Of a stretch of DNA of 64,000 nucleotides, positions 36,810-62,592 are shown one piece after another; position 1 is the stretch's first letter; each line of letters starts with the position of its first letter. Under the pieces are notes generated by a model. It was not told the origin of the DNA. It searched no databases and saw only the letters and a list, made by a program, of their open reading frames with translations. This stretch comes from Anaerocolumna cellulosilytica (GTDB lineage Bacteria > Bacillota > Clostridia > Lachnospirales > Lachnospiraceae). The translations under genes and the position numbers were made by a program. The stretch covers positions 1,985,501-2,049,500 of the forward strand of contig NZ_AP023367.1 of the NCBI RefSeq assembly GCF_014218335.1, in the 5' to 3' direction.

Positions 36810-38033
36810 ATGAAAAACAATTATTTATTTACATCAGAATCAGTAACGTCAGGTCACCCTGACAAAATGTGTGATATGATATCAGATGCTGTATTAGATG
36901 CGTATATTGAGCAAGATCCATACTCTAGAGTAGCTTGTGAAGTATCAGCAACAACAGGCATAGTATTAGTTATGGGAGAGATAACATCAACTGCCACAGT
37001 GAATATTTCAAAAGTAGTACGTGAAACAATTAAAGATATCGGATATATAGGTGAAAAGTTTGGGTTTAACGCAGAAACATGTGCCATTATATCAGCTATA
37101 GACAAGCAGTCAGAAGATATAAGCTTAGGAGTAAATAATTCTTTTGAGCATAGGCAGAAGGAAACAAAATGTAGTTTGTGTGACAATTGCTTAGAATCGG
37201 ATGAATATGATATAATAGGTGCAGGAGATCAAGGAATTATGTTTGGATATGCCTGTAATGAGACGGAAACCCTAATGCCGGCACCTATTTATTATGCGCA
37301 CAAAATTAGTGAAAGACTTAATATTGTTCGAAGTATGGGAATATTGGATTATTTAGGTCCGGATGGCAAGTCAATGGTAACATTCGAATACGATGGTAAT
37401 AAGCCAGTTAGAATAGATACAATCGTGGTATCTGTTCAACACCTATCAGAGATTTTGCAAGAAAAAATACATGCAGATATAAACAATTTTGTCATAGGGG
37501 AAGTAATACCAAAGAACTTGATTGATGAAAATACGAAAATATATATAAATCCTACTGGAAGATTTGTAAAAGGAGGACCTTGTGCGGATACAGGGCTAAC
37601 AGGTCGTAAGATTATTGTTGATACATATGGAGGTGTTGGCAGACATGGAGGTGGAGCATTCTCAGGAAAAGATCCTACAAAGGTAGATAGGACTGGTGCA
37701 TATGCTGCGCGTTATGTTGCAAAAAATATTGTCGCCGCCAATATTGCAGAAAAGTTCGAGGTGCAGATTGCGTATGCAATAGGTCATGCTTACCCTGTTT
37801 CAATACATGTAAATACTTTCGGAACATCCTCTATTGCTGATGATAAAATTGTGAAAATGATATATGACCTATTTGATTTAAGACCGGCGTCATTAATTAA
37901 TCAATTTAATATGAGGAAGCCAATTTATAAAAAACTTGCTGCGTATGGTCACCTTGGAAGAAATGATATTGAGACAGGTTGGGAGCAGATGAATAGAGTT
38001 AATGACATAAAAGAATACTTTCATATTAGCTAA
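36810..38033 (+). CDS. metK: S-adenosylmethionine synthetase
   Basis: 407 residues, full length. ATP-binding [16 protein letters not shown] at the start, [12 protein letters not shown] (about residue 135), [27 protein letters not shown] (split, about 280-305). Makes SAM from methionine and ATP. Compared with housekeeping enzymes it has a Cys-rich insertion ([14 protein letters not shown], about residues 118-131) just before GAGDQG. As a cluster-borne copy it probably supplies SAM for the two radical SAM enzymes, or SAM itself as a precursor. It is followed 52 bases later by a BtrH-like gene. Confidence 0.93.
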
Positions 38034-39776: not shown

Positions 39777-39894
39777 TTTTATAAAAAAAGAAAGGGTGTA
39801 AAGATTGATTACTTCTGCCTTGGTTTAAATAGGGTACAAAATGCAGTTGTATTCGCTTGTCAGGTTAATAATAGTGTTGAGAGATAAGTATTAT

Positions 39895-40671
39895 ATGAAT
39901 AATAAGCAAATGATTCGTGAAATATTGGGTATTAATTCCCCAATCATGATAGCTGGTCCTTGTGCAGTAGAAAACTTTGATATGATGGAAAAAATTACAG
40001 ATACTTTGGTTAGAAAAGGAATTAGAGCAATCAGAGCAGGTGCATTTAAACCACGGACATCTCCTGAAGATTTTCAGGGATTGGGTATAGAAGGTTTAAA
40101 AATTCTCAATCAAATTCGAAAGAAGTACAATGTAAAAATAGTTTCAGAAATCGTAGATGCAAAATATATTGATATCATGTACGAAAACATCGATGTTTTT
40201 CAAGTGGGTACAAGAAATATGTACAATTACGAGCTTTTAAAGGAATTGGGAAAAACCAACATTCCAGTTATTCTAAAAAGAGGTATGTGTGCCAAGATTG
40301 ATGAATTTATAAGTGCTGCAAATTATATATTACAGGGTGGAAATAAAAATATAATATTATGCGAAAGGGGTATACGTTCTTTTGATCAAAGTACTCGTAA
40401 TGTATTAGATTTATCTTGTATAGCAATTATTAAAAGTGAAACAAAATTCCCAATTATTGCAGATATCAGCCATTCATTAGGAAGAAAAGATATTTATCTG
40501 CCTGTCGCTAAGGCTGTACTTGCAGCCGGTGCGGATGGAATTATGGTTGAGGTACATAATAATCCAGAAAAGGCTTTATCTGATTCAAAACAACAGTTGA
40601 GTTTAAAGGAATTTGAAAAATTCTATAATGAGTTATTTAGTTCAGCTAATGATGCTGACGGATATCTGTGA
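39895..40671 (+). CDS. aroF: 3-deoxy-7-phosphoheptulonate (DAHP) synthase, type I beta
   Basis: 258 residues from the ATG at 39895; an ATG at 39841 would add a hydrophobic stretch without a ribosome site. Motifs: IMIAGPCAVENFD, IRAGAFKPRTSPEDFQGLG, VQVGTRNMYNYELL-like FQVGTRNM, VILKRGM, ILCERGIRSFD, IIADISHSLGRKD and GADGIMVEVHNNPEKALSD. It lacks the N-terminal ferredoxin-like regulatory domain, so is probably feedback-insensitive. Condenses PEP and erythrose-4-phosphate, the entry to the shikimate pathway. Within the cluster it suggests a chorismate-derived building block; the transketolase at the right edge could provide erythrose-4-phosphate. Confidence 0.9.
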   Translation: MNNKQMIREILGINSPIMIAGPCAVENFDMMEKITDTLVRKGIRAIRAGAFKPRTSPEDFQGLGIEGLKILNQIRKKYNVKIVSEIVDAKYIDIMYENIDVFQVGTRNMYNYELLKELGKTNIPVILKRGMCAKIDEFISAANYILQGGNKNIILCERGIRSFDQSTRNVLDLSCIAIIKSETKFPIIADISHSLGRKDIYLPVAKAVLAAGADGIMVEVHNNPEKALSDSKQQLSLKEFEKFYNELFSSANDADGYL

Positions 40672-40735
40672 CACAAAGTCGATTCTATGATTAAGAAAAA
40701 TGAATAAACAATTATTTACAAGGAGGAAAATAATT

Positions 40736-43700
40736 TTGAAAAAATTACTGATATTGTTGATTTTGATTACTTTGTTAATACCATCATCGAATGTTCTTGC
40801 AGAAGATACAGAAATAGGTGTAACCGAATATATGAATGATTTAGACAGCCTAGTACAGAAAGCACTTAATAAGTCAGATACACCTGGAGCGTCCATCGCC
40901 ATTGTTACAAAAGATGGAATTCAATTCAAAACATATGGTTATGCGGATATAGCTGATGGGATAAAGGTTTCCGAAGATACTTTATTTGAACTTGGTTCAA
41001 TGAGTAAAGCGTTTACCGCATTAGGAATTTTATACTTAGAACAGGAGGGAAGCCTAAATTTAACTGACAATATAAAAGAGTATATCCCATGGCTTACGCT
41101 TAATTTTGTAGGTGACTATAAAGGGCAGAAAATTGCTGGTGAAGTACCGGTAACAATTGAAAATGTGTTATATCAGACAACCGGGATTCCATTTCAAACA
41201 ATCGGAAATATACCGGAAGGAACCTCGGAGGATATGCTTGAAAAAACCATTCGTACACTAGATGGGATAAACCTTGATTTTTATCCTGGTACAAAATATT
41301 CCTATGCTACAATTAATTATGATATATTAGGGTTGATTATTCAAAAGATTTCCGGTCAAAGTTATGAAAGTTTTGTTACTGAAAAAATATTAAATCCTTT
41401 AGGCTTAAATCATACTTATTTAGATAAAGAACAGGCGTCCCAAACTGGAAAATTCGCTAAGGGTTATAAAACAGAATTTTTTAGCGCAAGGGAATACGCT
41501 GCTCCTACATACAGAGGAAATACACCAGCAGGGTATGCCATCTCATCAGCAAATGATATGGCACGTTGGCTTGGTATTCAGATGGGGCTGATAGAGATAC
41601 CAGAAACATATAAGGAACTCATACAAAAATCACATATTGGTGATAATACAGTAGCTTCATCAGGAGAGTTTTATTATGCTCCAGGATGGAGTGTACATAT
41701 TAGAGGTGAATCCATAGTACATGGTGGTTCTAATCCAAATTATTCTTCGTTGATCGAAATTAACAATGAAAAAAATATTGGTATATGTATATTAACGAAC
41801 CAAAATTCGAATGCTGCAAATTATGTGTCTGAAAATTTCTTCAATATATTATATCAACGAGATATTACAAAATATAAACCGGATACTTATCAATATTTGG
41901 ATTTGATTTTTTCAATCCTCTGTATAGGTTCTCTGATTTTTGTAGTATTTTTTTTCATTTTATTAGTAATAGCTATTAAAGATATTATCAAAAAAATAAG
42001 GATTAGAGAAAAATTAAGAAAAGCAAAGGTGGCAGGATTACTGCTTGCCATACCAATCATGATTTTCTTTGGTTACTGCATTTATTATCTTCCTAATATA
42101 CTGTTATCAAGATTGCCGTGGAAGACAGTAAATATATGGGGTTCTAGAAGTGTTATGTATGGTAGCGTAGCCACATTTTTTGCAGGAATAATATTTTTTA
42201 TCTATGTATTAGTAACCTTTAATTACCCTAAAAAGAATGAAAAAAATTATTTTGCATTAATTCCATTATCAATTCTGAATGGTTTGACTAGCGCATTAAT
42301 TATATTTACGATTAACGAATCTTTTAATAGGAATCTTGAGTATTCAAAAGAATTATTAATCTATTTTATTTTTTCCCTTATATTTTTTGTTTATACAATC
42401 AAGCTGGTACAAGGTAGATTGATTGTTATTACAAATGAAATGATGTATGAGAAACGGATGAATATGATAAATAAAATATTAAGCTCATCTTTTCAGACAA
42501 TTGAAAGTGTAGGAGTTGAAAGAATTTATTCAGGATTGAATAATGATATAGGTGCCATATCTAAGATTCCGAATATTGTCGTAAGCTTTGCATCGAATTT
42601 CTTGACGGTTATATTTTGCATTGCGTACCTTTTATCAAATAGTTTTGCAGCATTTGTTGCTTCAATTAGTATTATTGTACTAAATTTTTGTGTCAGCATT
42701 ATAACAAGCCGCATTGCAACTAAATTTTGGGAACAGAATAGAGATATTCAAGATATTTACTTTGGGCAAATGCACGATTTAGTCTATGGATTTAAAGAAT
42801 TAGTTTTGAGTAAATTAAGAAAAGCAGATTTTAGAAGTGATATGGAAGAGTATTCAAAAAAATCAAGAGACTTATCCACACAGGCAGACATAAAGTTTTT
42901 AAATTTTAGTATATATAACACTCTTATGTTTAATATTATTTTTGGTATTGTTGTTTTTGTTTTCCCATTATTTATTATTGGGATTCAAGTGAATGATTTA
43001 CGTGAAACCTTGTTTATGGTATTTTACTTGCTTGGGCCATTTCGTGTTATGATGGGCTTTATTCCGGCAATTACACAAGTTCGAATTAATTATAATAGAA
43101 TTAATAACTTGATTTCTGATTTAGAAAATGTATCTTCAAAGGAATGTAAGAAAATAACAACAGTAAATTTAGACAAAAAGAAAATAAATATAAAATTTGA
43201 CAATGCTTTTTATAGTTATATAGTGAAAAATGAAGATACGAATGAGGAAGGTGTGGAATTTACCTTAGGGCCTGTTAATATGGAAATGAATACTGGAGAG
43301 ATCATTTATATTACAGGTGGAAACGGAAGCGGTAAATCAACATTAGGAAGGCTTTTAAGTGGTTTATATGCACCACAAAGTGGAAGTGTCAAACTAAATG
43401 GTGAAATGTGCAATAGGTTGGATTTGAATGAATGTTTTTCTGCTGTTTTTAGTGATTTTCATTTGTTTAAAAAACTTTATGGAGTGGATATTTCATCAAA
43501 CAAACATGAAATAGATGAATTACTTAAAATGATGATGTTAGATAAGAAAGTAGAAATGAATGAATACGGTGAATTTAAATCACTAAATTTATCAACAGGT
43601 CAGAAAAAAAGACTTGCCTATATTGTTTGCTGCCTTGAGGACAAACCGTTTATGCTCTTTGATGAGTGGGCGGCAGAACAAGATCCTGAATTCAGACATT

Positions 43701-43852
43701 ACTTTTATACGGAATTATTGCCATTATTAAAGCAGAAAGGAAAGGGCATTATTATAATTACACATGACGACCGTTATTTTAATCTGGCAGATAAGATGAT
43801 TAAATTGGAACGAGGGGAGATCATAGAAAATGAATGTTCATCCACTATCTAA
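40736..43852 (+). CDS. S12-family prodrug peptidase fused to a cyclic-peptide ABC exporter (ZmaM-like)
   Basis: 1038 residues from a TTG at 40736 that has aggagg nine bases upstream; the ATG at 40700 has none. Signal peptide LLILLILITLLIPSSNVLA; beta-lactamase-fold serine peptidase with ELGSMSKAF (Ser88, Lys91), PGTKYSYATINY (Tyr190) and VHGGSNP; then three membrane helices (about 390-500); then a further membrane domain and an ABC ATPase with GGNGSGKST (about 860), LSTGQKKRLAY and FDEWAAEQDPEFR, the SyrD/PvdE-type exporter signature. This layout is that of ZmaM-like proteins, which export N-acyl-D-Asn prodrugs and cut off the acyl-D-Asn outside. The YxN motif reads YAT. The gene overlaps the Asn-type C-A-PCP-E gene by 23 bases. 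Confidence 0.88.
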   Translation: MKKLLILLILITLLIPSSNVLAEDTEIGVTEYMNDLDSLVQKALNKSDTPGASIAIVTKDGIQFKTYGYADIADGIKVSEDTLFELGSMSKAFTALGILYLEQEGSLNLTDNIKEYIPWLTLNFVGDYKGQKIAGEVPVTIENVLYQTTGIPFQTIGNIPEGTSEDMLEKTIRTLDGINLDFYPGTKYSYATINYDILGLIIQKISGQSYESFVTEKILNPLGLNHTYLDKEQASQTGKFAKGYKTEFFSAREYAAPTYRGNTPAGYAISSANDMARWLGIQMGLIEIPETYKELIQKSHIGDNTVASSGEFYYAPGWSVHIRGESIVHGGSNPNYSSLIEINNEKNIGICILTNQNSNAANYVSENFFNILYQRDITKYKPDTYQYLDLIFSILCIGSLIFVVFFFILLVIAIKDIIKKIRIREKLRKAKVAGLLLAIPIMIFFGYCIYYLPNILLSRLPWKTVNIWGSRSVMYGSVATFFAGIIFFIYVLVTFNYPKKNEKNYFALIPLSILNGLTSALIIFTINESFNRNLEYSKELLIYFIFSLIFFVYTIKLVQGRLIVITNEMMYEKRMNMINKILSSSFQTIESVGVERIYSGLNNDIGAISKIPNIVVSFASNFLTVIFCIAYLLSNSFAAFVASISIIVLNFCVSIITSRIATKFWEQNRDIQDIYFGQMHDLVYGFKELVLSKLRKADFRSDMEEYSKKSRDLSTQADIKFLNFSIYNTLMFNIIFGIVVFVFPLFIIGIQVNDLRETLFMVFYLLGPFRVMMGFIPAITQVRINYNRINNLISDLENVSSKECKKITTVNLDKKKINIKFDNAFYSYIVKNEDTNEEGVEFTLGPVNMEMNTGEIIYITGGNGSGKSTLGRLLSGLYAPQSGSVKLNGEMCNRLDLNECFSAVFSDFHLFKKLYGVDISSNKHEIDELLKMMMLDKKVEMNEYGEFKSLNLSTGQKKRLAYIVCCLEDKPFMLFDEWAAEQDPEFRHYFYTELLPLLKQKGKGIIIITHDDRYFNLADKMIKLERGEIIENECSSTI

Positions 43853-46800
43853 TGCACAAAAAAGAATATGGTTTACCCAAAAAAAATATGAGAACTCATC
43901 TTTATTCAATATCGGTGGCATGGTGAAAATAAATGGAAATGTTGATGTTCTTGCATTAAAACAAGCCATTTCTAATACAATCTTACATAATCCAGCTCTA
44001 AAACTAAGGCTTATTGAAAAAAATAATGAGATTTATCAATATATATCTTCGGAAACAGGTATTGTTGATTTTATTGATTTCTCTTGTGAAAAAGAAGAAG
44101 AAAAAGCTTTTATGGAATGGTATGATGAGCAAGCTAAGACCCCTTTTAAAATGATTAATTGTCCCTTATATTATTTTTCAATCTTTAAAATTTCTGACAA
44201 TAAAACGGGTTATTTTATTAAACTTCATCATATTATAGCGGACGGTTGGTCTATTCAATTGCTAACAGATCAAATCACAAATGAATACGAAAATGTTATT
44301 ATGAAACATTGTGAGAATGATGAAAGAAATACATATTTCATAGAAGAAAAACCCTCTTACATCAATTTCGTATACAATGAAGAATCCCAGTCAAAGCATA
44401 TGGATAAGGCAAAAAAATATTGGAATGAGATGTACTCTAAGATGCCGGAGTTATCCTCAGTTCCATGTACAAACTTAAATGGTCAGAGAATGTCTTTTAT
44501 TCCAGACGATTCTATGCAAGTAAAAATAGAACAATACATAAAGAAGCAAAAAATATCACTTAATACCTTTCTTATTTTTATTTATATCCTATACAGCTAC
44601 AAGAAATCAGGAACCAAAGATATCATAATAGGTATGCCTTTGCTCGGAAGAAAAGGAAAGGTAGAAAGGCAAACCTTTGGAACATTTACAAATACTATGC
44701 CATACCGATATGTCATTGATAAAAAAGAGAAGTTGGTTGATATACTAAAAAACATATCTATAGATTTAAAAAATAATTTGCGTTATCAAAACTATCCCTA
44801 TAATTTATTACATAGTGAATTACGGTTAGCTGAAAATGGAATAGGAAGTTTATATAATATATGTGTTAATTACTATAATACAGATATTAATACCACTTTT
44901 GGAGGATTCAAGGTAGAAAATAAGGAGTTTTATAACGGACAACAAGAATATGCGCTTCAAATCATTATTAGGCACTGGAATAATATTAAACTACAACTTG
45001 ACTTTGATTTCCAGACCGACTTATTTTCGGAGAAGCAAATAAAGGATATGTACCAACAATTTATTATTTTGATGAATCAAGTAATTCTTAATGATAGCAA
45101 TAAGGTTGGCGATTTGTTTCTAATAGATGATGAAGATAAGGTAAAAATTATAGATACCTTAAATCAAACGGGAAAGGTCTACCCAAAAGATAAAACATGG
45201 TTCGCTTTTTTTCATAAAATAGTGCACCAAAAACCAGACAATATTGCTATCTCCCAAAGAAAGGAGTCTATTACCTATCAAGAACTTGACCGCTTTTCGA
45301 ATAGAATAGCCAATACTATGATTCTTGCTGGAGTAAAAAAGGGGGATGTAGTGGCAGTTCTTCCTGAATATGATATTCAAAGTATAGCAATAATTGTTGC
45401 AATTATGAAGTGTGGAGGCGTATACCTCCCAATAGACATTCATTTTCCAATTGGTAGAGTCAATGAGATATTGCATAATTCAGACGCAGATTTTTTAATT
45501 GCTAAAGAAAATCATAGTAATTTCAGAGGCAGATTTTTTTCCTATAGAGAGTTATTATCTGACTCTAGCAATAATGAAACCATAAACTGCTGTGAAGCAT
45601 CGGACATCGCATATATCATATATACATCCGGTTCAACGGGTACGCCGAAAGGGGTAATGATTACTCACAGTAATTTTATGAATTATTTGTGTTGGGCAAA
45701 AGAAAGCTACATAAAACTAGATAAAGAGATATTCGCACTTTATTCTTCCTTTTCTTTTGATTTTACTATGACTTCTATCTTTTTACCATTGATTAGCGGT
45801 AATGAGATTCGGATTTACAATAATATGAAGGAAGATAATATTTTTAAGGAAATTATAGAAGAAAACAAAGCTACAATCTTAAAATTAACACCATCGCATA
45901 TAACACTAATTCAAGATATAAAAATAATGGATTCTAGTATTCATACATTTATTGTAGGTGGAGAAAATCTTAAAACCATTGTATGCGAGCAGTTATCTTG
46001 CAGGTTTAATAATAAGGTGAACATATACAACGAATACGGTCCTACTGAAACGACCATCGGATGTATGATTTATCTTTATGACAAAGATAAATCAGAATCC
46101 ATTCCTATTGGAAAACCAATTGCTAATACAACTATCTATATACTTGATCAAGACATGAAACCGGTACCAAACAACACATTAGGAGAAATTTACATTGGCG
46201 GGGCTGGTGTTTCTAAGGGATATTATCGTTCAAGTAAAGAAACCTGTAAACGATTTCTCCAAAGTCCTTATAGGAAAGATGAAATTATATATAAAACTGG
46301 AGACAGAGCATACCGTGATGATACCGGTAATATTATTTTTTCCGGAAGATTGGATAATGAAATAAAAATGCGTGGTAATCGGATTAATATTTCTGAGATT
46401 GAGCAGAAAATCTTATTAAGCAACATAGTGAAGGATGTTTTTGTTAAAACATTTCAAAATAAAAATGATACTTTACAGTTATGTGCTTATATTATACCAA
46501 ATGATTTATTTGACATCCACAAACTGTGCGATTATTTGAAAGAACACCTTCCAAGTTATATGATACCTTATTATTTTTCAACGCTAGATAAGTTTCCACT
46601 TACATTTAACGGGAAAATAAATGTAAATAAGCTGCCGGAACCATTAATGCCATTAAAAAAATTAAATATAAATAAAAGTATAAAGGCACATGAAATATTA
46701 TTGAATGTGGTAAAAGATATTGTTAATGAAAATAGCACATTAGAAGATAACTTTTACGCCCTTGGGGGAGATTCAATAAAAGCAATACAATTATCTTCCC

Positions 46801-48278
46801 GTCTAAGTGAACAAGGATATGAGTTGACAGTTCAGGATATTCTTTCCTATCCAGATTTATATGATATGGCTTATTATATAAAGGCCAAAACTAAAATAAG
46901 ATACGAACAAGGAACTTGCAGCGGGAATATTATAAAAACACCAATAATTTCATGGTTTTTTGATCAGAAATTTGAAAAAGAAGGACATTATAATCAATCT
47001 ATTTTATTAGAACTTTTTCAAGTTATACCCTTAGAAACACTCGATAAAGTTTTTTTAGAATTGATAAGGCATCATGACATACTTCGTCTAAATTATGATA
47101 AGGAAATGAAAGGTTTATATTATAATAATGAACATTTAAATACCGTTTCTTTTATCAATGTTATAAATTTAGAGGGGGAAAGTGTTAATCATATATTAGA
47201 TGTAATTAATACAAATATAAGTTATAATTTCGATTTGAAAAACAATCTGCTCATTAAACCCTATTTATTAAAGTCATCAAAAAGATGTTACTTGTATATT
47301 ACAGTGCATCATCTAGTAATTGATGGTGTATCTTGGAGAATTTTATTAGAAGATTTTACTACCTTATTAAAACAGGTAACAAATGAACAGACACTTTTAC
47401 TGCCGGAAAAAACAATCTCATATGATCAATATGCAGAAAAATACTGTGATTGGGCTTCAAAGAAAAATATAGATATTAATTTTTGGAATTCTATATTACG
47501 TATTGAGAACTGTCTAGTTAGAAATAGCAATGGCCATACTACTTGTGCAGAAACAGTAAAAACAGAAATTCAATTAAATCAAGAGATGACAGAGAATTTA
47601 CTTGGTTGTGCAAATGAGCCCTATCATACAAAACCGAATGAGCTTTTATTAATTGCTCTGGTACAAGCAGTAAATCAAGTCTTTTCAAGTAATGAACTTG
47701 TGCTGGAGTTAGAAAGTCATGGCCGAGATATAATGGAAGGTGTAAATACAAATCGCACAATTGGCTGGTTTACAAATATGTATCCTATACGGTTGAATAT
47801 ACAGGCGGCGGATTTACAAGTACAAATTAAATCATTAAAGGAACAGATAAGAGAAGGTGTAAGAAAAGGATATGAATATGGTATTTTGAAATATCTTCAA
47901 AAACAGGATTTGCCAGGAAAAAGGATGATATGTTTTAATTACCTAGGTGAATATAAAGAAAAACAAAATGATTATTTTACATTAAAGCAGTTACTGTTTG
48001 ATTGTAATATGTCAGAAAAAAACCAAATACCATACCTGATTGATGTGAATGCAGTTGTGGTGGACAAAAGAACTATTATTTCTATTAAATTTGATAAAAA
48101 CAAGTTTGATTGCAGTCAGATTGAAAAATTTAATCAATGCTTTGAGAAGGAGTTAAAAAAGATAGTAGAGCATTGTGTTGGCCTGAAGGAGAGTATTTTC
48201 ACACCAACAGATTTTGATTTGGTAGATTTGACACAGGAGGAACTAGATTACTTACTTCAAATGAAGGCAGATGAGTGA
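43830..48278 (+). CDS. NRPS module C-A-PCP-E, Asn-type (prodrug-forming starter)
   Basis: 1482 residues. Condensation domain with HHIIADG (133-139); adenylation domain with YTSGSTGTPKG (about 596) and YNEYGPTETT (about 735); carrier with GGDSIKA (about 978); epimerisation domain with HHLVIDGVSWR (about 1159), TIGWFTNMYP and CFNYLGEY. Specificity residues read by hand against GrsA: D-F-T-K-I-G-E-I-G-K, close to the known Asn code DLTKLGEVGK. C-A(Asn)-PCP-E as a first module is the arrangement of ClbN and XcnA, which make N-acyl-D-Asn. Start site gaggggagatcat lies within the exporter gene, so the two are translationally coupled. Confidence 0.92.
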   Translation: MNVHPLSNAQKRIWFTQKKYENSSLFNIGGMVKINGNVDVLALKQAISNTILHNPALKLRLIEKNNEIYQYISSETGIVDFIDFSCEKEEEKAFMEWYDEQAKTPFKMINCPLYYFSIFKISDNKTGYFIKLHHIIADGWSIQLLTDQITNEYENVIMKHCENDERNTYFIEEKPSYINFVYNEESQSKHMDKAKKYWNEMYSKMPELSSVPCTNLNGQRMSFIPDDSMQVKIEQYIKKQKISLNTFLIFIYILYSYKKSGTKDIIIGMPLLGRKGKVERQTFGTFTNTMPYRYVIDKKEKLVDILKNISIDLKNNLRYQNYPYNLLHSELRLAENGIGSLYNICVNYYNTDINTTFGGFKVENKEFYNGQQEYALQIIIRHWNNIKLQLDFDFQTDLFSEKQIKDMYQQFIILMNQVILNDSNKVGDLFLIDDEDKVKIIDTLNQTGKVYPKDKTWFAFFHKIVHQKPDNIAISQRKESITYQELDRFSNRIANTMILAGVKKGDVVAVLPEYDIQSIAIIVAIMKCGGVYLPIDIHFPIGRVNEILHNSDADFLIAKENHSNFRGRFFSYRELLSDSSNNETINCCEASDIAYIIYTSGSTGTPKGVMITHSNFMNYLCWAKESYIKLDKEIFALYSSFSFDFTMTSIFLPLISGNEIRIYNNMKEDNIFKEIIEENKATILKLTPSHITLIQDIKIMDSSIHTFIVGGENLKTIVCEQLSCRFNNKVNIYNEYGPTETTIGCMIYLYDKDKSESIPIGKPIANTTIYILDQDMKPVPNNTLGEIYIGGAGVSKGYYRSSKETCKRFLQSPYRKDEIIYKTGDRAYRDDTGNIIFSGRLDNEIKMRGNRINISEIEQKILLSNIVKDVFVKTFQNKNDTLQLCAYIIPNDLFDIHKLCDYLKEHLPSYMIPYYFSTLDKFPLTFNGKINVNKLPEPLMPLKKLNINKSIKAHEILLNVVKDIVNENSTLEDNFYALGGDSIKAIQLSSRLSEQGYELTVQDILSYPDLYDMAYYIKAKTKIRYEQGTCSGNIIKTPIISWFFDQKFEKEGHYNQSILLELFQVIPLETLDKVFLELIRHHDILRLNYDKEMKGLYYNNEHLNTVSFINVINLEGESVNHILDVINTNISYNFDLKNNLLIKPYLLKSSKRCYLYITVHHLVIDGVSWRILLEDFTTLLKQVTNEQTLLLPEKTISYDQYAEKYCDWASKKNIDINFWNSILRIENCLVRNSNGHTTCAETVKTEIQLNQEMTENLLGCANEPYHTKPNELLLIALVQAVNQVFSSNELVLELESHGRDIMEGVNTNRTIGWFTNMYPIRLNIQAADLQVQIKSLKEQIREGVRKGYEYGILKYLQKQDLPGKRMICFNYLGEYKEKQNDYFTLKQLLFDCNMSEKNQIPYLIDVNAVVVDKRTIISIKFDKNKFDCSQIEKFNQCFEKELKKIVEHCVGLKESIFTPTDFDLVDLTQEELDYLLQMKADE

Positions 48279-48309
48279 AAGGTTGAAAAAAGAACATTTT
48301 CAACCTTTC
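48277..48309 (+). terminator. Hairpin at the end of the NRPS gene
   Basis: Perfect 13-bp arms gaaaggttgaaaa (48277-48289) and ttttcaacctttc (48297-48309) starting in the stop codon of the NRPS gene; the following tattta is only weakly T-rich. Possibly a partial terminator that lowers expression of the downstream genes. Confidence 0.65.
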
Positions 48310-48369
48310 TATTTAGGCCTGTTCAATTTTGTAATAGGTCGTAAAAAATTGAAAGGCATGTGTGTTAAA

Positions 48370-49380
48370 ATGAAAAGATGTGAATTGAAAAACCTAACAA
48401 AGACAATGGAACAGATGCAGCCATTCAATGATTTTTTTTATCGGGATTGTTTTTATAACTCTTTATTCTCCATTATCAATTATGGGAAAGGAGATACCTC
48501 CAATATACTTGCAAATGAAATCCAACTGTATGACTATGTACCAGCGAATATATTGGAGGTAGGCATCGTCACGATATCGGTTGAACCGATGAACAAAATA
48601 CTAGAGAATATGAATATATTCTACGATTGGAGTGAACAAAAAGCAGATCCATATGAAATATATGATGCGCTAGATCATGATATGCCGGTTATTATTATGG
48701 TAGATTGTTTTGAGGAATCCATACGGGAAGAGTATTATCATAAAGAGCATTTGGATCATAATCTGTTAATATATGGCTATGATTTGGAGCAAAAAATCTT
48801 TTATATTATTGAACATAGTAAAAAGAATCGCTTAGATTATAAAAAGAAAACAATTCCAATAGATGTTGTACTAAAAGCATCCAATGCGTATATTTACCAT
48901 TATCAGAATGAGAAACAGGATGCTGCCATTTTTTATAAATTCTATCAAAAACAATCAAAGGATGGAATCAAAAAAAATGCGTCTACAATGTTCTGTGAGA
49001 ATTATTTAAAGTATGAAGTTATTATTAGGATGCAATTTATAAAACTTGACAATATCAAGGATACATTATGCAAATTCATTTACAATAGGAAGAAGCTGTC
49101 AGAGTGTATTGATACAATAACAGATGAGATAACGAATATTATAAATGCTAAAAAGATAGAGCAAAGAAAATATAAACTTTTTTTGAATCATACAGGGGTA
49201 AATCAGTTAATAGAAAGCATTCTAAATGGTTGGATAGCTATAAGACTCTATTTGATGAGTTACCAATATGGTGGGACTGAGATTGATAGAAAACTCGATG
49301 AGGCTGCAAAGCGTATAAATGAAATAGTGTTAGAAGAAAAAAGACTGATTAGATTAGTCTTTTTTCTTTTATATAAATAA
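48370..49380 (+). CDS. BtrH-like protein 3 (papain/C39-like fold, Cys and His retained)
   Basis: 336 residues from the ATG at 48370; in-frame ATGs at 48358 and 48271 are possible, but the last lies in the hairpin. Near the N-terminus FNDFFYRDCFYNSLFSIINYG places a Cys as in the BtrH family (Cys about residue 23); HDMPVIIMVDCFEESI and LDHNLLIYGYDLEQKIFYIIEHSK (about 130-165) supply the His-containing signature. The C-terminal half is helical. If it acts like BtrH it would transfer an acyl or peptidyl group from a carrier protein to an amine. Sits between the first and second NRPS genes, bounded by hairpins. Confidence 0.6.
   Translation: MKRCELKNLTKTMEQMQPFNDFFYRDCFYNSLFSIINYGKGDTSNILANEIQLYDYVPANILEVGIVTISVEPMNKILENMNIFYDWSEQKADPYEIYDALDHDMPVIIMVDCFEESIREEYYHKEHLDHNLLIYGYDLEQKIFYIIEHSKKNRLDYKKKTIPIDVVLKASNAYIYHYQNEKQDAAIFYKFYQKQSKDGIKKNASTMFCENYLKYEVIIRMQFIKLDNIKDTLCKFIYNRKKLSECIDTITDEITNIINAKKIEQRKYKLFLNHTGVNQLIESILNGWIAIRLYLMSYQYGGTEIDRKLDEAAKRINEIVLEEKRLIRLVFFLLYK
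49337..49370 (+). terminator. Terminator overlapping the end of BtrH-like gene 3
   Basis: Arms aaaaaagactgatt (49337-49350) and attagtcttttttc (49354-49367), inside the last codons, followed by tttta. Confidence 0.7.
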
Positions 49381-49400
49381 GTGAAAGAAGGTAGACCTAA

Positions 49401-51785
49401 ATGAAAAGAAATGAATTCATGCAATTAAAAGAACATAGCAGGATAGGTGAGAAATTGAGCAATAGCAGGCTATCCTGGGAGACATTTTATCTTAGTTCTT
49501 ATCTCGTATTACTAAATAAAATGTATGGATGGGAAGAACCAAGGGTTCTTATACAAGAAGGCAGCCAGAAATTAATCCAAATTAGGCTAACAGAGGATAT
49601 GACGTTTATTGAGTTGTGTAATAAGATAACAGAAGGGTTAAAGGAAGATTGTCCAGATAAAGGTTGTCAATATGTAGATAGAGACATTCAAGCTATCTTC
49701 TTAATCAATAAGGAGCAATTACAAATAGACCAGTTGGCTGAGAAATTCAGTAATTGTTTATGTATGGCTTGTTCTGAGGACAGTTTATATGTATCTTATC
49801 AATTTAAGAAAATGAATACAGAGAATAGTTTACTTTCTCTTACAGAGCAAAGACTCAATGAAATTGGTATGCAATATCTTTTATCTGAAGATATAAAAAT
49901 CAAGAATATATCCATTATAGGCAAAGAAGAAGAGGCAAAAATAAGTAGTTTTGTGAAAGGAAATAAAGAAGAGATTCCGGATAAGACTTTTCATAAGATG
50001 TTTGAAGAGCAGGTAATAAAGGCACCAAATAAAGTCGCTGTGATATGTGGTGAGGATACAATTACTTATAATGAATTAAACAAGAAAGCAAACCAACTGG
50101 CAAAATATATAGATGATAAAATAGAAGGTAAAGAAAATCTTATCGGAATCTATATGGAGAGATCCATAGGATTTATTATATCTATCCTAGGAATAATAAA
50201 ATCAGGGAATGCTTATGTCCCAATTGATCAAGATACGCTAAATCCAGGACACAGCGGAAGTTTTCCAAAAAGCAGATTAAGCTTTATGTTAAATGATACA
50301 AAGATGAAATTAGTTATAACAAAAAAAGTTTATTATCATGATATTCCAAGTGAGGATAGAGAAATACTTTGTCTGGATGATGATGTTTTAATTGATTATT
50401 CAACGACTAATTTGGAAAAAGCAATTCCTGCGGATCAGTTGATTTATGGAATCTACACATCTGGCTCAACCGGTTATCCTAAATTGACAATGATTGAACA
50501 CAAATCTGTTATCAATTTATTTTATAGCATTGATAAGTATGCATATTCCAGATTATCCGAGAAAGAAAATCATATAGTTGCACAAAATGCACCGTTTGGC
50601 TTTGATGCCTCTGTTCAACAACTTGTTTGTTTGGTAAAGGGTTATTCACTGTGTATTCTGACGGAACAAATAAGGAATTCTGCAAAAGGGATTATTGATT
50701 GCATATTAGGTAATAAGATTTCGGTCTTTGATTGTACACCTTCACAACTAGAATTATTGCTTAATGAAAGTATACTGGAAAAATGCGGTGATATACTTGA
50801 AGTGATTTTAGTTGGAGGTGAAAGTATTCCCGATAATATGTGGACTCGATTGGTACAGGAGAAGAATATTGATATTTTCAATGTGTATGGACCAGCAGAA
50901 TGCACGGTGGATTCTACATATTATTTGGTGAATGGAAGCGAGCATGAAATTCCGACAATCGGAACAGCAATTGATAACTGCAATATCCACATTCTTGACG
51001 ATGAACAAAATATTGTTCCGATTGGTTCAGTCGGGGAAATATATATATCTGGATTTGGGGTTAGCCGAGGATATTATAATAGAGATGAGTTGAATAAGAA
51101 TAGTTTTTTCAACCATACAGGATTAGGTTCGGCGCATCTATATAAAACAGGGGATAAAGGCTACTATTTATATGATGGCAATATTAGATATATAGGAAGA
51201 AGTGATGGGCAAGTCAAAATCAGAAGTCATAGAATTGAATTGGCTGAGATATCAACTAATTTATGCAAACACCGAAACATAAAGGATGCACTGATAACTG
51301 TAAATGAATCCTCAGGATATAAAAAACTGATTGCGTACTTGATTCTTAAGGAACAGAATGAGTTTGACCCACAAGATATATCCGATTTTTTATCTGACTA
51401 TGTACCAAAATATATGATTCCAAATCAATATATTGTTCTTACTGAATGGCCTCTTAACCAAAATATGAAAATTGACAAAAAACGATTACCATTACCGGAT
51501 GAAATTCATAAGGAAGGTGCTAATGGTATTGAATCAAAGGATGAGCTGGAAAGAGGATTAGCTGAAATCATGGTCAGAATATTAAAGATTAAAATGATTA
51601 CGGATACGGATAATTTTATGACACTTGGGGGAGATAGTTTACGAGTTATGACACTGCTTGCAGAAATATTCAGCAAGTATAATACAGAAATCGATTTTGA
51701 AGAGTTCTTTAAGAATCCAACGCTAAAGTTTATTAAACAAAAAGTGGTGGAAACTAAATTATCTAAGGAAAGGGTATTAAGGTGA
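49401..51785 (+). CDS. NRPS protein with degenerate N-terminus, A (Gln-type) and PCP
   Basis: 794 residues. About 190 N-terminal residues resemble the C-terminal lobe of a condensation domain (LYVSYQFKKMNTENSLLSL) but no HHxxxDG is present, so it cannot condense by itself. Adenylation domain with YTSGSTGYPK (about 352) and FNVYGPAECT (about 495). Residues read by hand: D-A-Q-D-L-G-V-V-D-K, identical to the published Gln code. Carrier GGDSLRV (about 743). With no competent condensation domain, another enzyme must form its bond, which fits the stand-alone BtrH-like proteins nearby. Ends six bases before the next gene. Confidence 0.9.
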   Translation: MKRNEFMQLKEHSRIGEKLSNSRLSWETFYLSSYLVLLNKMYGWEEPRVLIQEGSQKLIQIRLTEDMTFIELCNKITEGLKEDCPDKGCQYVDRDIQAIFLINKEQLQIDQLAEKFSNCLCMACSEDSLYVSYQFKKMNTENSLLSLTEQRLNEIGMQYLLSEDIKIKNISIIGKEEEAKISSFVKGNKEEIPDKTFHKMFEEQVIKAPNKVAVICGEDTITYNELNKKANQLAKYIDDKIEGKENLIGIYMERSIGFIISILGIIKSGNAYVPIDQDTLNPGHSGSFPKSRLSFMLNDTKMKLVITKKVYYHDIPSEDREILCLDDDVLIDYSTTNLEKAIPADQLIYGIYTSGSTGYPKLTMIEHKSVINLFYSIDKYAYSRLSEKENHIVAQNAPFGFDASVQQLVCLVKGYSLCILTEQIRNSAKGIIDCILGNKISVFDCTPSQLELLLNESILEKCGDILEVILVGGESIPDNMWTRLVQEKNIDIFNVYGPAECTVDSTYYLVNGSEHEIPTIGTAIDNCNIHILDDEQNIVPIGSVGEIYISGFGVSRGYYNRDELNKNSFFNHTGLGSAHLYKTGDKGYYLYDGNIRYIGRSDGQVKIRSHRIELAEISTNLCKHRNIKDALITVNESSGYKKLIAYLILKEQNEFDPQDISDFLSDYVPKYMIPNQYIVLTEWPLNQNMKIDKKRLPLPDEIHKEGANGIESKDELERGLAEIMVRILKIKMITDTDNFMTLGGDSLRVMTLLAEIFSKYNTEIDFEEFFKNPTLKFIKQKVVETKLSKERVLR

Positions 51786-51791: not shown

Positions 51792-53423
51792 ATGTCTTTG
51801 GATTGCATATTAATTGGTTTTAATGATGAAAAAATGGAAACAACCATTAAGAGAATAGAACCATATAAGAACCAAGGTGCTGCTTATCAGCACATGCTAA
51901 CAAGGTCGGCTATTGTAGATGGAAAACGAATGAAATATTCAGAACTCATAAGAGAAAGTATCAGCACTTCTTTAGGGATGGAAAGTGACTTATCTATTTA
52001 TAGAATGCCGAATATGGCGGTGCATTATATAAGACAGTATTTAAAGAAAAGAGATATTAGCGTTGAAATAATAAATAACTATAATTTTGGTAAAAAGAGG
52101 TTACAGCATTTACTTAAAACAAGAGAACCACTTCTGGTTGGTGTATCCTCCACCTGTATTGTTGAATCGGCGCCCCTAAGGGAAATGGTCGATTTTATTC
52201 GAGAAAATAATCCCTATGTTACGATTGTAATTGGTGGACCATTTATAAATAGTATCAATTATGAGTATCATGACCAACAGCAAAAGTATCTGCTACAGCG
52301 TATGGGTGCAGATATTTTTATCCATGAAAGACAAGGAGAAAATACATTATTTCGTATTTGTCTGGAATTAAAGAAAGAAAACCCGGATTTAGGCAGCATA
52401 CCCAATATACTATATCGTGATGGTAACGAAATCAAACGGACCATAAAAGTTCCAGAAAATATATCTTTGGATGCTGATCCAATCAAAGAATTTACATTTT
52501 ATGAAAATCATATAAAACCACCCGTATATGTAAGAACAGCAATTAGTTGTGCCTTAAATTGTGCTTTTTGCCGTTATCCCATATTAGGCGGAGAACTTAT
52601 GTATATGGAGCTAGAGTCAATAGAAAAGAATTTGGATTATATATATTCTTTAGGAGTTAAGTATCTTGTGTTCGTGGATGACTCCTTGAATATACCAATC
52701 GAACGTTTTAAAAGCCTGCTAAAATTAATGATTCGGAAAAAATACAATTTCAGGTGGTGTTCATTTTTTAGGATTTCACATTCTGATGAAGAAACTTACG
52801 AATTAATGGAAGAGTCAGGATGTTTAGGAGTTATTTTAGGAATTGAATCCGGTAACAATACAATCCTAAAAAATATGGATAAGCAAGTAACAAGAGAAAA
52901 ATTTTTATTTGGTATGGAACAATTAAAAAAGCATAATATTATAAGCTATGCTTCTTGCGTAATTGGTTTTCCTGGTGAAACAGTAGAGACAGCCAGAGAA
53001 ACTTTGCAATTTATTGAAGAGGCAAAGCCTGTATTTTATGACTTACAAACCTGGTTTTACGAGGGTGCGGTTCCAATTGCCAAGGAGAAAGATTATTACC
53101 AGTTAACTGGCTATGGATATGATTGGTCACATAAAGATATGAACAGTGCTACGGCAGCAAAAATTGTGAGTGACGGAATCAAAACAATTAAAAATTCTGC
53201 ATTTATGCCTTCTTTATCTTTTAACCTTTGGTCCTTTGCCTACTATCTATCTCAAGGTGCAACGTTAGATGAATTTTTATCATTTTCAAACATATTTAAG
53301 AACGTAATTGATTATGAAAAAAATGAAGTTGATGATGCATACAAGGAAAACATAAAGAAACTTATGATGGTTTTCAAAGATAATCAAAATTTATATGATA
53401 ACTTGAAAATGAGGAATGTATGA
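51792..53423 (+). CDS. Cobalamin-binding radical SAM enzyme 1 (PhpK-like)
   Basis: 543 residues. N-terminal B12-binding-like region (about 60-190, including GVSSTCIVESAPLREM and VIGGPFINS), then a radical SAM barrel with CALNCAFC (Cys at about 251, 255, 258), FVDDSLN and GIESGNNTILKNMDK. The start MSLDCILIGFNDEKMET and the region up to residue 60 resemble the PhpK group of B12 radical SAM methyltransferases, which methylate carbon or phosphinate phosphorus. Expected to use SAM and methylcobalamin; the substrate may be a carrier-bound residue. Overlaps the next gene by four bases. Confidence 0.85.
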   Translation: MSLDCILIGFNDEKMETTIKRIEPYKNQGAAYQHMLTRSAIVDGKRMKYSELIRESISTSLGMESDLSIYRMPNMAVHYIRQYLKKRDISVEIINNYNFGKKRLQHLLKTREPLLVGVSSTCIVESAPLREMVDFIRENNPYVTIVIGGPFINSINYEYHDQQQKYLLQRMGADIFIHERQGENTLFRICLELKKENPDLGSIPNILYRDGNEIKRTIKVPENISLDADPIKEFTFYENHIKPPVYVRTAISCALNCAFCRYPILGGELMYMELESIEKNLDYIYSLGVKYLVFVDDSLNIPIERFKSLLKLMIRKKYNFRWCSFFRISHSDEETYELMEESGCLGVILGIESGNNTILKNMDKQVTREKFLFGMEQLKKHNIISYASCVIGFPGETVETARETLQFIEEAKPVFYDLQTWFYEGAVPIAKEKDYYQLTGYGYDWSHKDMNSATAAKIVSDGIKTIKNSAFMPSLSFNLWSFAYYLSQGATLDEFLSFSNIFKNVIDYEKNEVDDAYKENIKKLMMVFKDNQNLYDNLKMRNV

Positions 53424-55351
53424 AAAAAAATATTTTATTTACAGGAATTTATGACCTGTTCGGTTTGAAGCTAGCCAGTGCGTTATATGAACAATTCCCA
53501 TCATCGATATATTATTTTGGAACCAAAGAAAATCTAAAGTGTTTAAATAAAATGATAACCGATTCTGTAATGTCAGTGGCTGAAAAGGAATATTTAACCG
53601 CTTACCTAAAAAAATTAACATATATTGAGGATGAGACGTACTTCACTTTAATGGGTCTAGATGATTTCGATTTAGATATATGGCATATGGATAATATTTA
53701 TCCGGCAACCAGTACTTATAATTTGAAAACATTAAATTTCAACAAAAATGAAATCCACAGAATCGAGAGGATTTGTAAAGCTTATAAGGTGAAACAAATT
53801 CATTATCTAAGTTCAATCTATAGATCTATAGATGATTATTTGTCAGATGTAGCTCTAAAGATTAAGGAAATGAATGAAGAATACATATTGCAAATTTGTA
53901 AAAATCAAAATATAAAAGGGACGATTTATCGGACTCCTATCATATTTAAACAGACAGGCCGAGAATGTGAAAGTGATTATATTAGCTTGCTAACTAAACG
54001 TATTGATGATTTTGTCAAATGGATAAAAGGGCGTATTCCTAATTACTTTGATAATTATAAAGTAAATTTGTTGAGCAAGAGTAATAGTACTTTACATATT
54101 TTTGATGTTGATAGCATCATAGAAAAAATTCTCGATTTAGAAGGTTCAGTAACACAGGATTTAATAGAAATTTATCATATATGTACAAGGACTAAGTATT
54201 CTACTATGGATATATGTAAGAAGATTTTCAAGGACTTATATGATATTGATGCTGACTTAGTTGACGATATATCTAAACTTACGGCAATTGACAAAATATT
54301 TCACAAAATATATACGTTTCACATACCTTACTTACATGAAAAAACAGATGATGCTAAAAGAACTGACTTAATTGCATCTAAGATAGAAGGATTTGAAAAA
54401 AGGGAATTAGGTAATGAAGAGAAGAGGGATGGTATAAGTGGTAGCCATACAAAGATATTGTATATGCATGGCGATAATAAACTTACGTATCATGTTGCCG
54501 GAAGCGGACAAGCCATTTTAATAGTAAATGCTTACGGAGTGAATACCGAAGCATGGGATTCATTGGTAGAGCTTTTATCTCAAAATTATTATGTCATATA
54601 TTGGAGAAGCAGAGGGCTTTATCACGATGAGAAAAAAGATGGTAAACAAGATTCGTACTGTGGCGTATGGGATCTGGTAGAAGATATTGAGCAGATTGTT
54701 CTTCATGAGAAGTTAAGTAGATTTCATATTATGTCTTGGTGTTCAGGCGCAAAAGCAGCTATTTTTTATAATTTAAAGCATCCGGACCACATATTGTCTC
54801 AAATTTTTATAGCAGGAGAGTTTGCGCCCTTTACAGGGAGTGAACCATATCATTCCAAATTTCGAGAAAACATTCAATTAATTGCGGATTTGGTACAAAA
54901 TAATGAACGAATGTTGGACTTCTATATGAAAATTATACATAAAGGAATGTTTAACCATCCGGTAAAGGAATTTTCATCCGCTGATGAAATGTATATTTAT
55001 GAAATAATGCCGGAAGAACATCGAAACGTTTTATTATCGCCATTTACTTCAAAGGAGACTATGGTGAATTTTTTAATGATGTGCATGGAGTACTACAAAT
55101 ACGATGTGACGGAGAAACTGAAAAGTATAAAAGTTCCAACGTTATTTATTTCAGCGGAATGTGACCAAGTAGCACCGTATATGCAATCGAAGTGGGCTCA
55201 CTCCAAGGTAGGAGATTCCTCTTTTGTTTGTTTTCCATCGGGAACACATTTATTGATTTTAGAGAGAACATCAGATGTATATGATATCATAATGCAGCAC
55301 ATGAAGTATAATAATTTTTCAGATGAAGGAAAGGGTGGTATGAACCCATGA
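53420..55351 (+). CDS. Degenerate SDR-like domain fused to a Cys-nucleophile alpha/beta hydrolase
   Basis: 643 residues. The N-terminal part (about 1-330) follows an extended SDR/thioester-reductase layout (NILFTGIYDLFGLKLASALYE at the start, HYLSSIYRS in the middle), but the glycine-rich loop keeps few glycines and the YxxxK is not intact, so redox activity is doubtful. The C-terminal part (about 355-635) is an alpha/beta hydrolase: oxyanion region VNAYGVNTEAWD, nucleophile elbow SWCSGA (Cys in place of Ser), Asp in SAECDQVAP and His in SGTHLLI. Cys-type thioesterases in NRPS systems release strained or amide-linked products. Overlaps its neighbours by four bases on both sides. Confidence 0.78.
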   Translation: MKKNILFTGIYDLFGLKLASALYEQFPSSIYYFGTKENLKCLNKMITDSVMSVAEKEYLTAYLKKLTYIEDETYFTLMGLDDFDLDIWHMDNIYPATSTYNLKTLNFNKNEIHRIERICKAYKVKQIHYLSSIYRSIDDYLSDVALKIKEMNEEYILQICKNQNIKGTIYRTPIIFKQTGRECESDYISLLTKRIDDFVKWIKGRIPNYFDNYKVNLLSKSNSTLHIFDVDSIIEKILDLEGSVTQDLIEIYHICTRTKYSTMDICKKIFKDLYDIDADLVDDISKLTAIDKIFHKIYTFHIPYLHEKTDDAKRTDLIASKIEGFEKRELGNEEKRDGISGSHTKILYMHGDNKLTYHVAGSGQAILIVNAYGVNTEAWDSLVELLSQNYYVIYWRSRGLYHDEKKDGKQDSYCGVWDLVEDIEQIVLHEKLSRFHIMSWCSGAKAAIFYNLKHPDHILSQIFIAGEFAPFTGSEPYHSKFRENIQLIADLVQNNERMLDFYMKIIHKGMFNHPVKEFSSADEMYIYEIMPEEHRNVLLSPFTSKETMVNFLMMCMEYYKYDVTEKLKSIKVPTLFISAECDQVAPYMQSKWAHSKVGDSSFVCFPSGTHLLILERTSDVYDIIMQHMKYNNFSDEGKGGMNP

Positions 55352-55596
55352 ATGAAAAGCAATTACTTAAAAGTTTTTTACAGAAGGATATATTTTTTAG
55401 TGACGAGGATTTTGCAGATAATCAGCAATTGATTGATAGTGGAATGATTGATTCTATTAGTATTGTCAAAGTAATTATTTTTATGGAAAAGAACTTTGGC
55501 ATCTCGTTCAAAGAGGAAGATATGGATCCGGAGAATTTTGAAACCTTGCAAGCCATGGTAAAGACAATTGAGAGTAAAAAAGCCTCAATGACTTGA
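55348..55596 (+). CDS. Free acyl/peptidyl carrier protein 1
   Basis: 82 residues, acidic four-helix carrier. DSGMIDSISIVKVIIFMEKNFGI holds the phosphopantetheine Ser in IDS-I (about residue 36). It overlaps the preceding hydrolase gene by four bases, which makes that enzyme its likely partner. BtrH-like proteins are known to use free carriers of this kind as acyl donors. Confidence 0.87.
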   Translation: MNEKQLLKSFLQKDIFFSDEDFADNQQLIDSGMIDSISIVKVIIFMEKNFGISFKEEDMDPENFETLQAMVKTIESKKASMT

Positions 55597-55626: not shown

Positions 55627-56052
55627 ATGATATTACATGTTGACATTTTTGTAAATTCAATGGATAAAATGTTGGAATTCTATGTTGATAAACTGGGAAT
55701 GAAAATAGTGGACGATAACATCGTAACAGGAGACTTAGTCCGTTTTGTTTCTAATAATCAGTATGATACTTATCGAGTTGTACTACTGAAAGCATCGGTC
55801 ATGGGTACGATGCTTGAGTTAATGGAATATTTGAGTGAGGATAAAAAAGAATTAGAGGTTTCAGAATCTAGAGCGACGATTACCTTACTAGTTCCATCCC
55901 TGGCAGATGAAATGAAACGCTTGCAAAAAAAAGGTTTGCAGCCGTTGAGCAAGGTGTTTTCAGTTAGTTTTCCAGTTGCCGGTGAATCGGATCTTATTTT
56001 TTATGAGGATCCGGAAAAAAATAAGGTTGAGCTGCTTGAAATGAAAGAGTAA
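55627..56052 (+). CDS. VOC-superfamily (glyoxalase/epimerase-like) protein
   Basis: 141 residues, two beta-alpha-beta-beta-beta modules: LHVDIFVNSMDKMLEFYVDKLGMKI and the C-terminal DLIFYEDPEKNKVELLEM with metal-ligand-type His and Glu. Members include lactoylglutathione lyase, methylmalonyl-CoA epimerase and antibiotic-binding proteins. Possibly a tailoring epimerase/isomerase, or a self-protection binding protein. Site gatgaggtggttat upstream. Confidence 0.82.
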   Translation: MILHVDIFVNSMDKMLEFYVDKLGMKIVDDNIVTGDLVRFVSNNQYDTYRVVLLKASVMGTMLELMEYLSEDKKELEVSESRATITLLVPSLADEMKRLQKKGLQPLSKVFSVSFPVAGESDLIFYEDPEKNKVELLEMKE

Positions 56053-56107
56053 TAAATGTTATAGGTTACCTTCATTAACCCAAATGTATGATATAAGGAG
56101 AGTGGAT

Positions 56108-62578: not shown

Positions 62579-62592
62579 AGGGGAATATTAAA

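Follow-up and report, generated by a model that had tools for sequence, protein, structure and literature searches.

Does the nonribosomal peptide synthetase (NRPS) cluster of an anaerobe, Anaerocolumna cellulosilytica, carry its own prodrug-type self-resistance system? The question is raised by two adjacent genes in a stretch of 64,000 nucleotides, here called the window (G000:C1:1985501-2049500; the genome is a single contig of 5.43 Mb). One encodes a peptidase fused to an ATP-binding cassette (ABC) exporter, the other an NRPS module; they are referred to as the 40736 and 43830 proteins after their positions in the window. The original prediction had proposed that they act by a prodrug route, with an acyl-D-Asn cap that is removed on export. 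The ClbP-like peptidase, the Asn-type code and the condensation domain nearest to the RzmA starter domain, all described below, support this proposal, and we regard it as highly probable that the two genes form a ClbN/ClbP-like module (ZmaM in zwittermicin biosynthesis) for prodrug-based self-resistance and export, which would start and end the synthesis of an uncharacterised peptide.

Organization of the peptidase-exporter

Both predicted open reading frames are present, intact and adjacent, with a 23 bp overlap between them; the NRPS gene overlaps the following gene by 8 bp. Translation of the peptidase-exporter from ATG 40700 would give 1050 residues and from TTG 40736 1038 residues. The TTG, which the original prediction had chosen, is the better start because an AAGGAGG site lies just 5′ of it and none precedes the ATG. 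Residue numbers below follow the 1050-residue frame; those of the TTG start are lower by 12.

The proposed order of signal peptide, S12 peptidase, three membrane helices and exporter agrees with Pfam family PF00144, NCBIfam model TIGR01194 and a hydropathy scan. The catalytic SxxK motif (S100-x-x-K103), the Tyr (Y202) and the HGG motif (residues 341–343) are in place. The scan shows one N-terminal signal-like segment, maxima at 406–424, 444–462 and 489–507, and additional segments in the exporter half. The NCBIfam comparison, taken from the best 25 of 200 families, places the cyclic-peptide exporter TIGR01194 C-terminal to the peptidase with 336.8 bits (cut-off 286.2); the models for class C beta-lactamase, PBP4B and AmpH stay below their cut-offs (116.1 vs 415, 76.7 vs 385 and 77.7 vs 266 bits).

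A search of 177,635 distinct PDB sequences returned full-length chains of ClbP, the colibactin peptidase, as the best solved relatives (7mdc, 7ul6 and 7mde; 2.5e-59, 204.6 bits). The alignment covers residues 47–508, which includes the membrane domain, with 147 of 439 positions identical (33%). The separate ClbP peptidase domain follows with 183 bits, a small lead over Flp (4gdn, 178.5 bits); a relative of penicillin-binding proteins (PBPs), 2qmi, scores 108.4 bits and AmpC chains about 80 bits, so that AmpC, PBP and esterase entries rank lower than ClbP, with Flp close to it. For comparison, ZmaM, the working zwittermicin peptidase, is described as only 27% identical to Escherichia coli ClbP, and Pseudovibrio ClbP as 29% identical (PMC13126165, in part).

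The D-Asn pocket

In the ClbP alignment, E92, S95, K98, Y186, S188 and K235 of ClbP correspond to E97, S100, K103, Y202, T204 and K251, and K240, F243, H257, N331, W460 and W466 to K257, F260, N274, N345, W474 and W480. The position of F462 is taken by a Thr; mutation of F462 had no effect in ClbP (PMC9889268, in part). The sections of that paper on sequence conservation describe N331 as strictly conserved in prodrug-activating peptidases, unlike in S12 enzymes at large, with Ser or Thr at 188, His or Asn at 257, and W460 and W466 as the strictly conserved residues of the membrane domain (PMC9889268). The 40736 protein agrees with this description at 92, 188, 257, 331, W460 and W466 and in its three-helix membrane domain, and it falls with the prodrug group at these positions. 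A further two S12 proteins encoded in this genome deviate at 92 and 331.

Eight long peptidase-exporters were compared: those of the window, its paralogue, Anaerosporobacter faecicola (G166), and genomes G496, G435, G531, G644 and G494. All eight keep E92, S95, K98, Y186, Thr188, Asn257, N331, W460 and W466 (ClbP numbering). K235 was dropped as a marker, being Lys in only two of the eight. The pocket of the 40736 protein likely indicates a preference for D-Asn.

The NRPS initiation module

The 43830 protein has the predicted order of condensation (C), adenylation (A), peptidyl carrier protein (PCP) and epimerization (E) domains, with two HHxxxDG motifs and LGGDS. Pfam E-values range from 1.2e-9 (PCP) to 3.3e-136 (C), so the matches are not due to chance. 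The second condensation-type stretch is read as E from its position and its HHLVIDG motif. Closest to the C domain are three RzmA starter C domain sequences (3.5e-30 to 1.2e-28), ahead of the next kind at 2e-17; 7C1H, 7C1K and 7C1P are depositions of RzmA-Cs (PMC7804268, in part).

Recomputation by alignment gave the same ten-letter code that had been predicted for the A domain, DFTKIGEIGK, which is shared with the A. faecicola module and matches DLTKIGEVGK at eight of ten positions. The latter was the only one of five ten-letter codes sought that turned up in the open-access papers searched, in a single one of them, where the entry stands in an Asp/Asn section and is also given as compatible with a cyanoalanine moiety (PMC12283262, in part). 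Exact DLTKIGEVGK is found in a second module of the same genome and in all four class relatives read (G435, G496, G531 and G644). The specificity predicted from the code of the 43830 protein is thus of the Asn type.

Related systems and distribution of the module

By description, the 40736 protein resembles ZmaM, PamJ (paenilamicin) and EdeA (edeine), in which an S12 peptidase, membrane helices and an ABC half-transporter are joined in about 1,050–1,100 residues and encoded in a cluster with an acyl-D-Asn NRPS module (PMC9889268, in part). The host here differs in being a Lachnospiraceae-type anaerobe. The core genes presumably also differ in kind from those of the zwittermicin, paenilamicin and edeine clusters. 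ClbP has the peptidase, the membrane domain and the D-Asn pocket in common with the 40736 protein, and differs from it in lacking the ABC domain and in having Ser188 and His257, where Thr and Asn are found here. ClbN, the partner of ClbP, has the C-A-PCP-E architecture of the 43830 protein.

A second module in the same genome (G000:C1:4558665-4566687) encodes a peptidase-exporter with 57% identity and, next to it, a C-A-PCP-E protein of its own, so that one genome appears to hold two prodrug systems. It sits in a polyketide synthase (PKS)/NRPS cluster (G000:C1:4536000-4567000, L011-L013) with genes of haloacid dehalogenase (HAD) type and for an acyl-CoA dehydrogenase, a carrier protein and a NusG-like protein; we take the HAD, dehydrogenase and carrier genes to be like the hydroxymalonyl/aminomalonyl-ACP (acyl carrier protein) genes of zwittermicin.

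Among named organisms, the nearest relative found is A. faecicola (L014; G166:C15), whose locus is the only close full-length relative among nine matched. Thirteen genes, 40736 through 62575, keep the order of the window except for the displaced homologue of 60990. The two cap genes are 77% and 65% identical, and the shared genes 48–87%. Its cluster has in addition phosphopantetheinyl transferase, NusG-like and asparagine-synthase family genes (G166:C15:262623-264575 and 298434-299764) and other PKS genes; the asparagine-synthase family gene could serve to provide Asn or to form an amide. Across the 95 kb read there, no match to DAHP (3-deoxy-D-arabino-heptulosonate 7-phosphate) synthase, transketolase or panD was found.

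A search with the peptidase part at 1e-70 matches 6 of 299 family genomes, its own included, with seven matches in all: three in frames of more than 1,000 residues (two in this genome, one in A. faecicola) and four short. At 1e-50, 6 of 15 genomes of the genus match, the long form occurring only in this one. The full protein at 1e-100 finds 6 of 391 genomes of the class and 1 of 398 of the phylum (its own); no relative turned up among plasmid records at 1e-60. A C-A-PCP-E gene stands beside the peptidase-exporter in seven of the eight long cases, with Pfam domains confirmed for the six other than the window; the exception is G494, where 20 kb of its 41 kb contig were read and no such gene was seen. 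A published network of ClbP homologues comprises 730 homologues and 271 candidates, mostly from Firmicutes (PMC9889268, in part), and none of the open-access papers listed by our searches deals with a module of this type in these anaerobes. The cap system is very likely an additional ZmaM-type prodrug system, and what is new is its place in an anaerobe cluster of an uncharacterised product, with sibling clusters that have or lack the cap.

Stand-alone ClbP-like peptidases with most of the D-Asn pocket residues are present in eight genomes of the family (L037-L040, L030-L033), two of them with a stop inside the match. In a tree of 19 peptidase rows (ClbP as the sole reference, on a long branch), 4 of 16 inner branches are starred, and long and short forms are not cleanly separated. 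Because the deeper splits are weakly supported, the tree is used only for the pair of window and A. faecicola (97/100). Ruminiclostridium-like genomes hold an exporter that matches the query from residue ~380-400 and is devoid of the peptidase domain (L057:7351-9303 and L058:6446-8455); its gene overlaps one for 439 residues with no Pfam match, beside a large NRPS gene.

Proposed mechanism and alternatives

From domains, catalytic and pocket residues, type of code, gene overlap and conservation in a second genus, all of which are read from the sequence, we infer the substrate, its D-configuration, cleavage, export and a toxicity of the product to its producer. In the 43830 protein, the putative starter C domain would attach a fatty acyl group to the L-Asn that the protein's own A domain activates, and the E domain would convert the product to acyl-D-Asn. 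Handed to the downstream A-PCP proteins, this unit would leave the whole product capped at its N-terminus and inactive in the cell. The ABC half-transporter of the 40736 protein would export the capped product, and the S12 domain, outside the membrane, would cut the D-Asn bond through Ser100-Lys103-Tyr202, with N345 recognising the side chain of D-Asn, and release the active product and free acyl-D-Asn.

Several observations weigh against this scheme. Eight short homologues from the same family, which have no exporter, keep most of the pocket: E92 and N331 in all eight, Thr188 in seven (Asn in G309), Asn257 in seven (Cys in G309) and W466 in seven (the G299 frame ends earlier); W460 is less common (four of eight). 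No NRPS was noticed by eye near four of them in open reading frame lists of 13–20 kb, the other four being represented by flanks of 1.5 kb only. Because the short forms share most pocket residues, the case for self-resistance rests jointly on the pocket, the exporter fusion and the Asn module. Two of the ten code positions differ from DLTKIGEVGK, and a fold model of residues 1–523 from a two-row alignment reached a mean pLDDT (predicted local distance difference test) of 39.5 and was not used. In two genomes with related core genes, G278 and G531, tblastn of a 40 kb stretch at each core found no peptidase and matched the cap NRPS only in its A-PCP part. The core seems not to need the cap, because these two genomes hold the core with no cap module seen in the 40 kb.

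The 40736 protein could instead be an ordinary S12 enzyme (a D-Ala carboxypeptidase, a beta-lactamase-like enzyme or an esterase) fused by chance to an exporter, and the NRPS would then make a plain lipopeptide that keeps its N-terminal D-Asn. S12 is a large superfamily, Flp scores nearly as high as the ClbP peptidase domain (178.5 vs 183 bits), and plain lipopeptides also show lipo-initiation together with Asn. We consider this very unlikely, given the residues kept at 92, 188, 257, 331, 460 and 466, the ClbP-type membrane domain, and the C-A-PCP-E gene that accompanies all but one of the long forms. Just as improbable is that the cap genes make a small product of their own, an acyl-D-Asn or acyl-D-Asn dipeptide signal, apart from the downstream pathway. 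Cores with no cap genes seen beside them would fit such a separation; the genes from 39841 on, however, overlap or are closely spaced, no terminator-like site was found in 38000-50000, and the cap genes head the 13 genes kept in order in A. faecicola. That the module has been repurposed, with a peptidase that scavenges or detoxifies the acyl-D-Asn compounds of neighbours, perhaps as the stand-alone short homologues do, is suggested by those homologues with most of the pocket and by related cores lacking the cap. All motifs of the module are intact, its genes overlap, and both keep their place in the A. faecicola operon at the identities given above, which leaves this reading barely credible.

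The surrounding cluster

The module lies in a cluster of ~59 kb that extends from 35438 past the window to about C1:2080018 (limits by eye). Its features within the window are collected in Table 1. A metK gene also occurs close to the clusters of A. faecicola and G278. The code DAQDLGVVDK of the first downstream A-PCP protein is described as recognising Glu and Gln (PMC12283262, in part). In this protein a remnant of a C domain is discerned by eye at 49401-49970 of the window, with none detected by Pfam. Promoter-like sites occur at the level of shuffled sequence (79 vs 77.1).

Table 1. Features of the module and its cluster in the window.
Feature	Position	Strand	Basis
S-adenosylmethionine synthetase (metK) copy	36810..38033	+	NCBIfam
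DAHP synthase, directly 5′ of peptidase-exporter	39841..40671	+	Pfam, NCBIfam
Ribosome-binding site AAGGAGG of peptidase-exporter gene	40720..40726	+	read directly
Putative ZmaM-type prodrug peptidase and TIGR01194 (SyrD-like) ABC exporter, one protein	40736..43852	+	reading frame intact
S12 peptidase domain, residues 48-378	40841..41833	+	Pfam Beta-lactamase PF00144, 3.8e-62
Three-helix ClbP-like membrane domain, residues 406-507, W474 and W480	41915..42220	+	hydropathy, ClbP alignment
ABC exporter half-transporter, residues 521-1044	42260..43831	+	TIGR01194; GGNGSGKST, LSTGQ, DEW and THDD motifs
ClbN-like initiation NRPS, C-A(Asn-type)-PCP-E	43830..48278	+	Pfam, motifs, code
C domain, HHIIADG; nearest solved relative RzmA-Cs	43836..45149	+	Pfam, PDB comparison
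A domain, code DFTKIGEIGK	45216..46616	+	Pfam, code by alignment
PCP with LGGDS	46698..46877	+	Pfam, motif
Second condensation-type stretch read as E, HHLVIDG at residue 1160, limits approximate	46947..48254	+	Pfam, motif
BtrH_N/C39-like putative acyltransferase, 8 bp overlap with NRPS gene	48271..49380	+	above Pfam cut-off
A-PCP, code DAQDLGVVDK (Glu/Gln type)	49401..51785	+	Pfam, code by alignment
PhpK-family B12 radical S-adenosylmethionine (SAM) methyltransferase	51792..53423	+	649.7 bits, cut-off 600
Unknown N-terminal part and C-terminal alpha/beta hydrolase	53420..55351	+	Pfam, NCBIfam
Carrier protein	55348..55596	+	
VOC (vicinal oxygen chelate)/glyoxalase-superfamily protein	55627..56052	+	
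Class I/II aminotransferase	56084..57289	+	
A-PCP, unusual code TDWQFGIIYK, without Asp235	57279..59042	+	code by alignment
B12 radical SAM protein	59105..60757	+	
Weakly BtrH-like protein, about 19% identity, no Pfam match	60990..62111	+	
Carrier protein	62330..62578	+	
AAT-family (acyl-CoA:6-aminopenicillanic acid acyltransferase) protein	62575..63669	+	

Several BtrH_N/C39-like proteins are encoded in the cluster; that at 38086 is below the Pfam cut-off, and others are assigned at 18–21% identity or by eye. A link of these proteins to closthioamide was dropped, as such proteins are not described in the relevant parts of PMC6772006. A second PhpK-family protein of the cluster reaches 557.7 bits, short of the 600-bit cut-off.

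Beyond the window, the cluster continues with a split transketolase, a DUF362-ferredoxin protein, a DegT aminotransferase, panD, two U32-family proteins, a ketosynthase and a free C domain. The split transketolase (L009:1171-2990) adjoins a carrier protein and an AAT-family gene, and could presumably serve to load a unit of two carbons, as happens in naphthyridinomycin. An A domain with Val at 235 (code VAWALTGDDK; L009:15176-17914), in a protein that also has the C-terminal half of a C domain, occurs together with panD (L010:1967-2323), suggesting a beta-alanine unit. The two U32-family proteins (L010:2340-3419 and 6146-7267) have two homologues in A. faecicola; some U32 proteins are O2-independent hydroxylases. 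A B12-binding region is fused to an A-PCP with code DGSSVAEIAK (L010:7257-10871); it is radical-SAM-like by eye, with no Radical_SAM match in Pfam. The DNA 5′ of the cluster holds conjugative-element-like and serine-recombinase-like genes (by eye) and a group II intron (RF02001, RF00029), at 8414-19790, 27078-28883 and 29841-31648 of the window.

Capped and uncapped sibling clusters

The cores of G278, from another genus of the same family, and of G531 are closely related to that of the window, with identities of 72.5% and 66% for the PhpK-type protein, 68% and 70% for the aminotransferase and 72% and 63% for the second radical SAM protein, respectively. Both A-PCP codes (DAQDLGVVDK and TDWQFGIIYK) are identical in all four clusters, G278 and G531 included. 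The tblastn comparison that found no peptidase at these two cores does recover the two cap proteins from A. faecicola and from another cluster of G531, which has its own cap module there. G278 has no peptidase match at 1e-70 in the genome-wide family search. Both cores are near a contig end, and their neighbourhood would allow for a cap module on another contig. The occurrence of capped and uncapped cores suggests that self-protection is an exchangeable cassette. Capped clusters share genes unseen in that of G278 (an AAT-family protein, the 66801 homologue and the U32 pair), so that capped and uncapped products need not be identical.

The G278 cluster includes a gene for a Tag-type 3-methyladenine DNA glycosylase (L067:5236-5787; PF03352, 222 bits), of which no second copy was found in the genome. 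Its start overlaps the final codons of the cluster gene before it (ATGA), a BtrH-like gene comes next, and two ABC half-transporters are encoded farther along. DNA glycosylases in clusters for DNA-alkylating products are an established theme of self-resistance, and the families named in the parts of these papers that treat it are related to AlkD and AlkZ, not to Tag (PMC9040887, PMC8626424, PMC8934636). A tag gene near the G531 core was rejected as evidence: it adjoins the same gene for a 211-residue metallo-beta-lactamase-fold protein in all four Ruminiclostridium-like genomes, and is not counted because tag is genus-wide there. The one tag gene of the present genome lies apart from the cluster, and none was found in A. 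faecicola. Only the G278 tag is counted, because it is the sole copy and lies inside the operon; it hints weakly at a product that attacks DNA. It is conceivable, though we think it rather unlikely, that the shared core (two A-PCP proteins, two B12 radical SAM enzymes, the aminotransferase and the VOC protein) produces a new peptide that alkylates DNA, with interchangeable protection, by cap and peptidase-exporter in this genome and A. faecicola or by tag and separate ABC exporters in G278. If true, this would extend a defence logic like that of colibactin to a chemically unrelated product of anaerobes.

Implications

The analysis places a complete, putative acyl-D-Asn prodrug module in genomes of Lachnospiraceae-type anaerobes. 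The relative with the same module bears a faecal species name, and a link to the gut is a point worth checking. The cap predicts a handle for mass spectrometry, namely acyl-D-Asn and, when the published boronic-acid inhibitor blocks the peptidase, capped precursors, which would help to find the product of this large cluster with its many radical SAM enzymes. Sibling clusters that have or lack the cap but share the same A-domain codes allow the purpose of the cap itself to be asked.

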